DNA of 64,000 bases, from assembly GCF_005576615.1 (NCBI RefSeq), contig NZ_CP040330.1, positions 62,001-126,000 on the forward strand, in the 5' to 3' direction. Origin of the DNA: Natrinema versiforme (lineage in GTDB: Archaea > Halobacteriota > Halobacteria > Halobacteriales > Natrialbaceae). The notes beneath the pieces were generated by a model. That model was not told the DNA's origin. It saw only the letters and a list, made by a program, of their open reading frames with translations, and did no database searches. This document shows positions 18,087 through 45,380 of the stretch, piece by piece. Each line of letters starts with the position of its first letter. The first letter of the stretch is position 1. The position numbers were made by a program, and so were the translations under genes.

Positions 18087-19118
18087 GTGACGATCGCTGG
18101 TGCCGTCGCGACGGGTCCGGACCTCCTTCGACTCGTCGCCGTTCCCGTCTTCGCGTTGGTCGCCTACCGCGACATCGAGACCCGGCGCGTCTCGAGTACC
18201 GTCTGGATCCCCCTCGCGCTCCTCGGAGCCGTCCTCCTCTGCTGGGACGCCCGACTGGCGTGGGCCGCCGGCGGGAACGCGTGGACCTTCGAGTTCCTCA
18301 TTCCGACGGCGATCAGCCTCGGGTTGGTCGTGCCGATCGCCTACCTGTTCTGGTGGGTCGGCGGCTTCGGCGGGGCCGATGCGAAGGCCCTGCTCGTCCT
18401 CGCCGTGCTCTTTCCGACGTTCCCCGAGTACGCGCTGGGATCGCGGACGCTCCCGCTCGCCGGGGCGACGGACATCGGGACGTTCTCGTTTACCATCCTG
18501 ACGAACGCCGTCCTCGTGGGCGTCGCGCTGCCGGTTGCCCTCGCCGTCCGCAACGCCGCCGCGGGCCGGGTCGCCCCGGTCATGTTCGTCGGCTGGCCGA
18601 TTTCGTGGGCTCGGATTCCGGAGACCCACGGCCGCCTGCTCTCGACGCCGACGGGGCTCTCTCGAGGGGGTCTCGACCTCGACGCACTGCGGATGTACCT
18701 GCGCTGGCGGGGCCTCTCGCTGGCCGATGTCCGCAACGTGCCCGCGCGCTACCGGAATCCGGACACGCTCCCTGCTGAGCCGAACCCGCCGACCGATGGC
18801 GCGGTGACCGCGGATGCGCCTCGGAGCGACGGCGGCGAGATTGAGTCGGCTGCCGCCGATGAAACCCCTGCGGCGGAGTCGGAACCGGAATCGCAACCAG
18901 CCGACTACGACGACCCGTGGGGAGCCGACGCGTTCCTCGCGGACATCGACGGTTCGGCCTACGGCACGACCCCCGAGACGCTGCGCGAGGGCCTCGAGGT
19001 GCTCGCCGAGGAGGAGACGGTCTGGATCTCGCCGGGAACGCCGTTCCTCGTCCCGGTGTTCGCCGGACTGGTAATCGCGCTGGTCTACGGCGACCTGCTG
19101 CTGGGAACGTTGTTCTGA
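18087..19118 (+). CDS. A24-type prepilin/preflagellin peptidase with long C-terminal extension
   Basis: Aspartic membrane peptidase that trims class III signal peptides of pilins and archaellins. 343 aa from a GTG preceded by ggagga at 18075-18080 (6-bp spacing); the frame runs back to 17955 but the added 44 residues are polar and a TATA-like cttttag near 17940 would put the transcript start after that codon. Seen: the catalytic Asp pair in YRDIETRR (Asp29) and GGADAK (Asp98), with about six membrane segments. After residue 180 comes a soluble part, an acidic low-complexity linker (about 225-275) and a final hydrophobic helix (VFAGLVIALVYGDLLLGTLF). The extension makes it longer than typical FlaK/PibD proteins. 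Confidence 0.85.
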   Translation: MTIAGAVATGPDLLRLVAVPVFALVAYRDIETRRVSSTVWIPLALLGAVLLCWDARLAWAAGGNAWTFEFLIPTAISLGLVVPIAYLFWWVGGFGGADAKALLVLAVLFPTFPEYALGSRTLPLAGATDIGTFSFTILTNAVLVGVALPVALAVRNAAAGRVAPVMFVGWPISWARIPETHGRLLSTPTGLSRGGLDLDALRMYLRWRGLSLADVRNVPARYRNPDTLPAEPNPPTDGAVTADAPRSDGGEIESAAADETPAAESEPESQPADYDDPWGADAFLADIDGSAYGTTPETLREGLEVLAEEETVWISPGTPFLVPVFAGLVIALVYGDLLLGTLF

Positions 19119-19214
19119 CAGTCGCTGTACGTGCCTTTTCACGTTCGAGCTATCCGCGGAGCCCGCGGTAAATTTCGGCCAGCGATATCCTATCCCGTCC
19201 GATCAACCGAGTGT

Positions 19215-19466
19215 GGTGGCGCGCGCTGTGCCGTGGTGAGGGTGCGAGGCCGAGCAAAGCGAGGCCTCGAAAAACGAGCGGTGACCGCAGGGAACCGCGA
19301 GTAGATACCGAACCACGGCACGACGCTGCGCGAGGTCTTCGCGAATGGAGTGAGCGAAGGCTTGGAAGACTCAGAGAGTCTTCCAGTGGATGAGCGAGCG
19401 AACGAAGTGAGCAAGCGAATCGGCTGGGGAGGGCGTGGCGATTCCTTGCCGCCACGATAGCAGGAC
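19215..19466 (+). repeat. dispersed structured repeat, family 1, copy A
   Basis: Shares its 5' block ggtggcgcgcgct, the inner gcgcgagg, and its 3' block (gaatcgg, tggggagggcgtggcgatt, gccacgatagcag) with copies at 33436 and 45202. The hairpin after the 5' block pairs gtgccgtggt (19228-19237) with accacggcac (19312-19321); its sequence differs from the other copies. This copy carries about 50 extra bases with its own 9-bp perfect hairpin (ggaagactc 19364-19372 with gagtcttcc 19376-19384). It sits between convergent genes. No protein is encoded. Confidence 0.75.
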
Positions 19467-19521: not shown

Positions 19522-19749
19522 CTACAGCGTCCGCTCGTACAGCGGCACGACGACGGTCCAGAAGAGCACGAAGGCGACGCCGACGCCGATCAGCGCCAGC
19601 CACGGGTCGCCCCTGCCGGTCGGCACTCCGCTCGAGAGGAGGACGAACGTCCCGGCGAACAGCAGACAGCAGACGAGGACGCTCCCGACCTCGAGGACTG
19701 TGGCGACGGGGTGGGCGCGAAGTTGAGCGACGATGCCGGCGAGGGTCAT
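19522..19749 (-). CDS. small membrane protein, 75 aa
   Basis: Start taken at the ATG giving MTLAGIVAQLRAHPV; a frame 19 codons longer lacks support. Seen: two hydrophobic segments (about 16-38 and 47-68) separated by SSGVPTGRGDP, with the short end VPLYERTL. The two-helix hairpin pattern is common in haloarchaeal orphan membrane proteins. No family recognised. Its 3' end faces the repeat copy A; upstream lies a gene on the same strand 72 bp away, so the two may share a transcript. Confidence 0.6.
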   Translation of the reverse strand: MTLAGIVAQLRAHPVATVLEVGSVLVCCLLFAGTFVLLSSGVPTGRGDPWLALIGVGVAFVLFWTVVVPLYERTL

Positions 19750-26532: not shown

Positions 26533-28620
26533 GTGAAATCCCGGGTCGCCGTCTTCGCGTTCGTCGTCTTGCTCGCTACCAGTCTACCCGCCGGCGCTGT
26601 CACCCTCGAGTCGGGGAGCGCCATCGAACCCTCGGCGACTGCTGATTCCGCGTCGGGGTCCGAACTCGGGTCGAGCCGGTCTCTCGCGTCGGTCGGGACG
26701 AGTGTCGGCGCTGACGACGTCTTCCACCGGACGACCGTCCTCCGGCATCGGCCGGACGACCCCGAGACGTTCGGGACGGAGATGACCTTCCGGGTCCCCG
26801 ATCCCGTCACGGAGTTCGAGATCGAACTCGAGCGGGGCGCGACCGTCGAGTCCGTCGCGGGCTTCGAGCGGACGGGCGAGCGGACCTTCCAGTGGGACGA
26901 GGAAACCGCCGAGCCGACGATCCGGTACGCGATGCCGGCGGATCAGCGCGGCGGCGGCGAGCAGCGGGGGACCGACTCGAGCGCGGGGTACACGTTCGTC
27001 GACACCGGCGAGTGGGGCGTCGTGGGGGTCCCCGACGTCGCGATCTCGCTGCGTCGGACCGAGCCGGTCGGCATCGAGGAGACGGTGACCGTCGACGGCC
27101 TGGGCGCGACCGGCGGCGACATCGCGTTCTTCGGCGAGGTACAGGAGTACGAACGCGACGTCGACGGGGAGACGTTCCGGCTGGCCGTGCCCGAGGTCGT
27201 GGATCTCGAGGAGTCGCCGGACGCGATCCTCACGGCCCTCGCGGACGCGAGCGGGCGGCTTGAGGTCGGCATGCGAAGCGACGAGGTGTTTATGGTCGCA
27301 GTTCCGAGCGATGTCGACTGGGGCTCGAATCGGGGGATTCAGTACGGCCAGTCGGACGCGTGGGTCGTCGAGGACGCCACGCTCGACGAGCGGAACCCGG
27401 TCTGGTTCCACGAGTACGTCCACGTCCGCCAGCGCTTCTCGGCGACGGCGGTCGCCACCGCGCCCGAGGCCGACTGGATCGTCGAGGGGCAGGCCGACTA
27501 CTACGCGGGCCTGCTCGCCCTCGAGAGCGGGCGCACCGAGTTCGGCGAGTTCAGCACCCTCCTCGAGCGGGGCCAGCGATCGCGCTACACCGACGGGGTT
27601 CTCACCGACAGGTCGACGTGGGACGATCCGGAGACCGACTACGCGAAAGGGGCACTCGTCGCCGGCGAGATCGACCGCCGGCTCCGGCTCGCCACCGACG
27701 GCGATCGCACGCTCGAGGACGTGTTCCGGACGCTGAACGCACGGGAGGAGACGGTGACCCAGACGGACTTCCTGCGAGCGGTCGAGGACGCCGGCGGGGC
27801 GGAGGTCCGCGCCGCCGCGGAGCGGTACACGCAAACCGAGGCGACGCCGGAGATGTGGAACCGAAGCCAGCACGAGGCCGCCTTCGGGCAGTCGGTCGCG
27901 GCCTTCGAGTACGAAACCGAGGCCGAATCGCTCACGGTGGCCGGACAGGAGTGGCCCCGCTGGAGCACGTCGGACCTCGGCCGCACCGACGGCGAGGATC
28001 GCGCCGTCATCGCGGTCCCGGCGGGCGAGTCCGTGACGATCCCGACGACGGTCGAAAACACCGGCAAACGGGCGGGAACCTACGACGCGACGCTACAGGC
28101 CGGCGGACGGGTGGTCGATAGCCGACGGGGGACCCTCGAGCCCGGAGCGACGGCGACCCACGCCCTCTCATGGACGCCGTCCGAGCCGGGCGAGTACACG
28201 ATTCGGATCGGCTCGGAGCGACTGACCGCCGTCGTCAGGTCGTCCGGGAGCGTGGCCGTTACCGACGTGCAGCACGCGCCCGACGGTATCGACGCCGGCG
28301 AGTCGGTGACCGCGACCGCGACGATCGAGGCCGCCGGCGATCGACCGGGGGCGGCCGTCCTCGCGTTCCGGACCGTCGACGGCGTCGTCGCCGAGCGCCC
28401 GGTCGCGATTCGGCCCGGCGAGACGACGACGGTCGACGCCGAGATCCGGTTCGACGAGGACGGTCGGTACGAGATCGCGGTCCACGACCGGGTGACGACC
28501 ATCGATGTCGGCGGCGGCGCGGTCGCGGGCCTCGAGGCGGTCCCCGGCTTCGGCGTCCCGGCGGCGCTGGTCGCCGTCGCGGCGGCGCTGCTGGGTGCAC
28601 TGGTGGCTCGTCACCGGTGA
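26533..28620 (+). CDS. secreted metalloprotease-like protein with PGF-CTERM anchor
   Basis: 695 aa, GTG start followed by a signal peptide (KSRVAVFAFVVLLATSLPAGA). Seen: a zinc-protease core HEYVH at 293-297 and the downstream acidic ligand Glu318 in WIVEGQADYYAG, the gluzincin arrangement. Before it is a beta-rich domain; after it, a helical part, then two Ig-like domains (about 500-650: a NEW/CARDB-like VENTGKRAGTYDATL). The C terminus PGFGVPAALVAVAAALLGALVARHR-type segment (written here as PGFGVPAALV and a basic end, about 671-695) is a PGF-CTERM signal cut by archaeosortase A with lipid attachment. Likely cell-surface. Substrate unknown. Confidence 0.82.
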   Translation: MKSRVAVFAFVVLLATSLPAGAVTLESGSAIEPSATADSASGSELGSSRSLASVGTSVGADDVFHRTTVLRHRPDDPETFGTEMTFRVPDPVTEFEIELERGATVESVAGFERTGERTFQWDEETAEPTIRYAMPADQRGGGEQRGTDSSAGYTFVDTGEWGVVGVPDVAISLRRTEPVGIEETVTVDGLGATGGDIAFFGEVQEYERDVDGETFRLAVPEVVDLEESPDAILTALADASGRLEVGMRSDEVFMVAVPSDVDWGSNRGIQYGQSDAWVVEDATLDERNPVWFHEYVHVRQRFSATAVATAPEADWIVEGQADYYAGLLALESGRTEFGEFSTLLERGQRSRYTDGVLTDRSTWDDPETDYAKGALVAGEIDRRLRLATDGDRTLEDVFRTLNAREETVTQTDFLRAVEDAGGAEVRAAAERYTQTEATPEMWNRSQHEAAFGQSVAAFEYETEAESLTVAGQEWPRWSTSDLGRTDGEDRAVIAVPAGESVTIPTTVENTGKRAGTYDATLQAGGRVVDSRRGTLEPGATATHALSWTPSEPGEYTIRIGSERLTAVVRSSGSVAVTDVQHAPDGIDAGESVTATATIEAAGDRPGAAVLAFRTVDGVVAERPVAIRPGETTTVDAEIRFDEDGRYEIAVHDRVTTIDVGGGAVAGLEAVPGFGVPAALVAVAAALLGALVARHR

Positions 28621-33357: not shown

Positions 33358-33435
33358 ACCCGGGTTCTGCTGACAGATCCGAGCCGCGAACCGTACGGCC
33401 ATCATGTCTCGCTCCGTCCCGTGCAGTCGGCATGC

Positions 33436-33570
33436 GGTGGCGCGCGCTATCGCTCGTCCGAACGAGAGTGAGGACGACCGATGACACTGCGCGAGGGATG
33501 AGCGAGGACATAGTCCGAGCGAATCGGTTGGGGAGGGCGTGGCGATTCCTTGTTGCCACGATAGCAGGAC
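33436..33570 (+). repeat. dispersed structured repeat, family 1, copy B
   Basis: Same 5' block ggtggcgcgcgct and same 3' block ending gccacgatagcaggac as copy A. The hairpin pairs atcg with cgat and tcgtcc (33454-33459) with ggacga (33472-33477), a different sequence from copies A and C. It lies between glmM and uspA, which converge, with its 3' end 66 bp from the uspA stop. This is the minimal form without the extra hairpin of copy A. Confidence 0.75.
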
Positions 33571-45106: not shown

Positions 45107-45201
45107 GTCCGTCTCCAACCCGAGAGCCGTTTTCGAAACCCAACTGATCCGGTTCGGTACGGGCGAACACTGTCCTATTCCAGTCTGGTCAATCGATACA
45201 C

Positions 45202-45335
45202 GATGGCGCGCTGTGGCCGGCCGAGCGAAAGCGAGGACGGCCGACATATTGCGCGAGGGATGAACGAACGACCAGCGGGAGTGAGTGAATCGGTTGGGGA
45301 GGGCGTGGCGATTGCCTGCTGCCACGATAGCAGAC
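45202..45335 (+). repeat. dispersed structured repeat, family 1, copy C
   Basis: 5' block gatggcgcgct and 3' block gaatcggttggggagggcg, gtggcgattgcctgctgccac, gatagcag. The hairpin pairs tgt with aca and ggccg with cggcc (45212-45246, one bulged G), again a different sequence from copies A and B. It lies between the convergent DsrE gene and a lipoprotein gene, its 3' end 45 bp from the latter's stop. Confidence 0.75.
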
Positions 45336-45380
45336 CACTCGTCTTCGTCGGAACCACTCCGGAAACCCAGTCAGTCGATT

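Follow-up and report, generated by a model that had tools for sequence, protein, structure and literature searches.

The window analysed here, a 64-kb stretch of DNA (C2:62001-126000 within a 4.67-Mb genome), carries three copies of a structured repeat, all found on the + strand at the places named in a preliminary description of this DNA (Table 1). Gene calls bear out that each copy lies between convergent genes: the + strand genes stop at 19118, 33357 and 45106, and the - strand genes on the other side end at 19522, 33637 and 45381. Exact ATCGGYTGGGGAGG occurs in the three copies and nowhere else in the window. A candidate fourth copy at 28619 was rejected, as it is merely GACGGTTGGGGAGG at a gene end with the remainder of the element missing. 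The stem said to differ between the copies and yet to pair in each was recovered in all three. In copy 1 (W1) GTGCCGTGGT (19228-19237) pairs with ACCACGGCAC (19312-19321), in copy 2 (W2) CGTCC with GGACG and ATCG with CGAT, and in copy 3 (W3) GGCCG with CGGCC and TGT with ACA. This variable stem, arm A, is enclosed by a helix overlooked in the preliminary description, P1, in which a CGCGCG strand preceding arm A is paired with the UGCGCG that precedes AGGGAUGAG. Copy 1 is longer because additional hairpin modules sit in its arm A and ahead of arm B; the module at 19333-19388 recurs in other copies, and N. versiforme lacks it at the corresponding site.

Table 1. Positions of the three copies and their parts in the window.
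Feature	Position	Strand	Basis
Copy 1 (W1), long form with extra hairpin modules	19209..19466	+	sequence, model match; N. versiforme ortholog (L115/L221) without one module
Copy 1 P1 (19220-19225 with 19327-19332) around arm A (19228-19321)	19220..19332	+	sequence, fold, alignment-supported structure
Copy 1 optional hairpin module in the P1-arm B interval (TCTTCGC..GCGAAG; GGAAGACTC..GAGTCTTCC)	19333..19388	+	
Copy 1 arm B with tandem G-A steps	19389..19421	+	sequence, fold
Copy 1 invariant G-rich strand, possible hairpin P3 (19435-19455), 3' end GATAGCAG	19422..19463	+	sequence
Copy 2 (W2), standard form	33430..33570	+	model match 147 bits
Copy 2 P1 (33441-33446 with 33488-33493) around arm A (33450-33481)	33441..33493	+	alignment-supported structure
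Copy 2 arm B (GAU ga GC ga ... ga GC ga AUC)	33497..33525	+	alignment-supported structure
Copy 2 G-rich strand (33526-33537), possible hairpin P3 (33539-33559), 3' end	33526..33567	+	alignment
Copy 3 (W3)	45196..45336	+	sequence; model match 127 bits
Copy 3 P1 (45207-45211 with 45251-45255) around arm A (45212-45246)	45207..45255	+	sequence; structure from alignment
Copy 3 arm B	45259..45291	+	sequence
Copy 3 G-rich strand, possible hairpin P3 (45305-45325), 3' end	45292..45333	+	sequence

The core of the element, ~140 nt long, consists of helix P1, two arms (A, which changes fast, and B), a GGYUGGGGAGG strand that is invariant, and possibly a hairpin on the 3' side. Its parts follow the order 5' TGCGGTGGC, P1, arm A, P1', AGG, optional hairpin modules, arm B and GGYUGGGGAGG. 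In the Natrialbaceae the G-rich strand leads into a GUGGC...GCCAC hairpin and then GAUAGCAG; other families have a different 3' part, often continuing into GACTGAAAGGGGC. Arm B is built of two-base-pair steps spaced by GA opposite GA, and the tandem GA/GA was invariant at both arm-B sites in 47 of 47 copies, with the intervening base pairs covarying. Some copies (L046, L051, L117, L122, L039) show a symmetric GAGGACCGCA / GAGGACCGCA internal loop instead of the GA/GA steps, resembling a module inside the GACTGAAAGGGGC family. A short ORF after GGGGAGG was rejected, as its frame is lost because the alternative 3' ends differ by one base. Downstream of the 3' end runs a pyrimidine-rich tail. Upstream, no conserved TATA-like promoter box was found; a weak T/A peak at -27 to -25 was detected in Natrialbaceae only, and the other families were without even this.

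The GACTGAAAGGGGC string belongs to a second, related repeat with the order GACTGAAAGGGGC, an inner long stem and GGGGCTTTC, and with GACGTAAGCACCGCAG / GAGGAGCGCAGCGAG inside (L293-L322, L039; in the genome of the window L301, L311 and L319). It occurs alone, head-to-head, or fused downstream of the RNA-like core, and genome G041 holds 51 exact 13-mers of it vs. none in the reversed control. A leader common to the core and the GACTGAAAGGGGC elements was unsupported in fixed register. Another string, GTTCAGTACAGG, is over-represented in N. zhouii and in G303, and at the copy-2 site it flanks small inserts as inverted ends (CTGTTCAGTACAG ... CTGTACTGAACAG; L242 in G047, L256 in G252; L272-L292); it is possibly the end of another transposon or a separate repeat.

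The conservation of the fold was assessed on covariation, using a parsimony-based null that preserves the tree and the substitution counts. Under this null 11 of the 32 pairs were significant at p<=0.01 (two in P1, five in arm A, four in arm B), and the summed G reached 665 vs. a null maximum of 206. None of these pairs falls in P3, so the 3' hairpin (gtggc/gccac) of the preliminary description is left without covariation support. In the alignment 92.3% of the paired cells could pair vs. 80.0% in shuffles, changes on both sides were present in 22 of 34 pairs, and the signal was lost when the partner column was slid by 1-3 columns. The top eight column pairs of an unsupervised MI-APC analysis all lay within the structure. 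Covariation thus significantly exceeds that expected from phylogeny, as is asked of a structured non-coding RNA. Moreover, G-U outnumbers A-C in the paired columns (120:21 overall, 47:0 in P1), which is the expectation for an RNA read from the given strand. Such patterns could also arise if template-switch correction of quasi-palindromes equalised the two DNA arms, leaving covariation that has nothing to do with RNA function. Arms change wholesale between copies and hairpin modules appear and disappear at the same site, much as this process would have it; yet it would erase the non-Watson-Crick GA/GA steps invariant in every training copy, it predicts no asymmetry of G-U over A-C, and the single-base compensations in P1 and arm B differ from hairpin replacement. 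We therefore regard it as very improbable.

Whether selection acts on copies once they are in place can be judged at orthologous sites, that is, loci whose flanking genes are also homologous, compared between species. There the 5' block is mostly 75-100% and the 3' block mostly 85-98% identical (two looser pairs at 66-74%), the adjacent 3' spacer falls to 38-85% identity, and the arms are altered. Across P1 and the basal arm B we counted 55 changed pairs, of which 33 were altered on one side and still paired, 20 were altered on both sides and 2 were broken; the comparisons behind these counts are not all independent, notably within W1 and W2. With 53 of 55 changed pairs still paired next to a diverging spacer, the copies are under selection after insertion, and this selection is retained at orthologous loci. 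For copy 3 all 141 nt are identical in N. versiforme (G229), where the flanking coding DNA is 93-97% identical. In Haloarcula five locus groups share both flanks across species, with 2-8 loci each, and the copies therefore persist in place. A short divergent variant (GGCGCGYGATGAA ... GAGGGGCGTCCGAGCGAAGCGAGGACGACGG) adjoins the same minus-strand gene in four Haloarcula genomes (L182-L187). Taken together, covariation, the invariant G-A steps, the G-U excess and the compensatory changes strongly support selection on a folded single strand, as the preliminary description had proposed. The core fold (P1, arm A, arm B and the invariant G-rich strand) is evidently kept by selection in each resident copy, and the selected form of it is most likely RNA.

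The family proved far larger than the three copies first described. A covariance model (R1) trained on 47 copies gave 27 matches at E<=0.01 in the genome of the window, where copy 1 was split into two of them and the family amounts to ~25 copies; a search with the conserved blocks found 20 full-length places. The model search of haloarchaeal genomes that had been suggested yielded matches in 239 of 392 genomes of the order, and at genus level in 60 of 95, making the family class-wide; two congeners were without a match in this order-wide search, in which stricter filters applied. A strict DNA pattern recovered 93 stretches among named Natrialbaceae, at least 40 of them from N. zhouii. In 20 chosen genomes counted in full, with the best 150 candidates scored, the R1 matches per genome ranged from 3 to at least 148. 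In a phylum-wide sample of 295 genomes 29 were positive, every one within the same order, and none of the genomes outside it gave a match.

Comparison of the three sites among congeners showed that the copies come and go. Queries with the flanks revealed that in many congeners the two convergent genes nearly abut: at site 1 single matches span the join and the stops lie 0-10 nt apart, the interval at site 2 is about 25 nt, and that at site 3 is 13-56 nt. The sites are therefore polymorphic; the direction of the change, gain or loss, we infer. Any given copy is missing from most congeners, and two congeners gave no match under the stricter filters of the order-wide search, so no single copy is essential. 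Copies present in some species and absent in others evidently spread and vanish over evolution. Even at one site the optional modules vary: at the copy-2 site the distance from the 5' to the 3' block is 99, 99, 159, 212 and 280 nt in five species vs. 95 nt here. At the same orthologous site N. versiforme (L246) carries an insertion of 3.8 kb, in which a TnpB-like gene and a fragment resembling a histidine kinase were identified by eye.

As regards genomic context, the convergent arrangement holds for the window and does not extend to the family as a rule. Among 89 copies with both flanks called, 37 were convergent vs. 21-27% of background intergenic regions and 13 were divergent vs. 24-29%, which makes convergence a preference. 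Such enrichment, the divergent depletion and the pyrimidine-rich tail would suit a cis-acting element at transcript ends, namely an RNA terminator, an insulator or a protector of mRNA 3' ends between genes. Of 27 cases with two copies within 400 nt of each other, 25 were tail-to-tail and none was in tandem, and tail-to-tail pairs would shield both sides. However, between co-directional genes the orientation was unbiased (21 sense, 18 antisense copies), and orthologous genes do without the element. Tail-to-tail pairs were also found in divergent and co-directional intervals, so that gene context does not explain the arrangement. A cis-acting role accounts for the convergent preference and not for the missing strand bias, and we consider it improbable. 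The tail-to-tail gaps are often near 80-100 nt, as though two full units abut (G303, G255, C2:586175-586509 and 3441834-3442234 in the genome of the window, L123, L056 and others).

The main rival to an RNA gene family is a mobile element of the non-autonomous kind (MITE-, PATE- or REPIN-like), whose fold would be recognised as RNA or ssDNA by a mobilising enzyme and whose copies would have no host function. Copy numbers from 0 to at least 148, the occurrence of both occupied and empty sites among congeners (with many of the empty spacers only about 0-56 nt long) and the tail-to-tail arrangement irrespective of gene context all fit this account, as does repeat similarity reaching about -50 and +50 past the core in N. 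zhouii. A mobilising enzyme was sought in turn. Reverse transcriptase (RVT_1) was absent from 12 of 12 genomes, which leaves retro-mobilisation or a SINE-like origin unsupported. Y1 transposase numbered 0 in N. zhouii, 0 in a genome with 101 copies and seven in a matchless genome; as its presence does not follow copy number, mobilisation of the REPIN/RAYT or IS605 type is likewise not supported. No recurring neighbour protein family was found beside the copies, TnpB included, and inspection by eye recognised neither a terminal inverted repeat nor a target duplication. Phages held no copy and viral contigs no full one, giving only chance-level matches to parts of the motif, and viral carriage was rejected. 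Structural selection persists on resident copies at orthologous sites. A mobile element accounts for dispersal and copy number and not for conservation after insertion, and we hold it to be rather unlikely. The MITE alternative raised in the preliminary description is right in part, as to dispersal, since copies are gained and lost between species; overall, the interpretation given there is partly supported.

The reading we prefer, and consider slightly better than an even bet, is a multicopy, spreading family of structured non-coding RNAs read from the given strand. Because the stems change letters yet stay paired, it seems that every copy is preserved as a functioning folded RNA. The element is presumably transcribed, by its own promoter or by read-through, and would act as a small RNA that binds a protein or the ribosome. 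The arms may serve as exchangeable structural struts, and the invariant GGCGCGCGCUG, GCGAGGGAUGAG and GGYUGGGGAGG may form a recognition surface. We judge the likeliest mechanism to be that the small RNA serves as scaffold for a protein or attaches to the ribosome via its invariant single-stranded parts. The fuller proposal, a class-wide RNA gene family that is mobile-like in its placement and functional-RNA-like at each locus, with freely exchanged hairpin modules made of tandem G-A steps and a protein or ribosome partner, is plausible, if somewhat less than even in its chances. CCUCC is the end of 16S rRNA, and we conjecture that the exposed GGGGAGG pairs with it; by a similar conjecture the four GG runs could, in a cytoplasm rich in KCl, fold into a quadruplex stabilised by K+. 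A maintained RNA would fill a sizeable gap in archaeal RNA biology, being a fold of which a genome has as many as about 150 copies and which extends over much of the class. The family blurs the boundary between mobile repeat and RNA gene and offers a large natural variant set for the tandem G-A architecture in a KCl-rich cytoplasm. With the covariance model its expression and binding partners become directly testable in culturable Natrinema and Haloarcula.

In agreement with the preliminary description, no described family corresponding to this one was found in Rfam or in the papers covered. The window gave no Rfam match at gathering thresholds, and at relaxed thresholds the best matches over copy 2 were at chance level (mir-4856, 18.6 bits; sR16, 12.6 bits). 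In the open-access literature we found no description of the motifs or of such haloarchaeal repeats or sRNAs; most subscription papers lie beyond that scope, and a prior description is therefore possible.

Several known systems resemble the family in part. REP, BIME and REPIN sequences of bacteria are short structured intergenic repeats with many copies, enriched away from promoters and often in inverted pairs, and REPINs rely on the Y1 (RAYT) transposase. The family shares with them the short structured intergenic form, the many copies, the enrichment away from promoters and the frequent inverted pairs. In contrast to REPINs, Y1 presence is here independent of copy number, and in place of a single imperfect palindrome the core combines several helices, which covary strongly and include tandem G-A steps. 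The PATEs, MITEs and SMRs of Haloquadratum walsbyi, as far as the available part of their account goes (PMC3119063), are similarly non-coding, dispersed, haloarchaeal and devoid of a transposase gene. PATEs have IS605-type-like ends with near-terminal palindromes, and MITEs and SMRs have terminal inverted repeats; that part of the account reports neither covariation nor selection after insertion, unlike what we observe here (PMC3119063). A further difference from PATEs and other IS605-derived elements is that Y1 is absent from the high-copy genomes, the ends having been compared by eye only. Rfam families are likewise modelled by covariance models, yet none matched. Lists of candidate structured RNAs are not known to include such copy number, site gain and loss, swappable modules and tail-to-tail pairs. 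The candidates obtained by comparative genomics (e.g., PMC2864571) are, like the present family, defined by covariation before function. What sets the family apart from such lists in general is its copy number of up to about 150 per genome, its site turnover, its swappable modules and its tail-to-tail arrangement.
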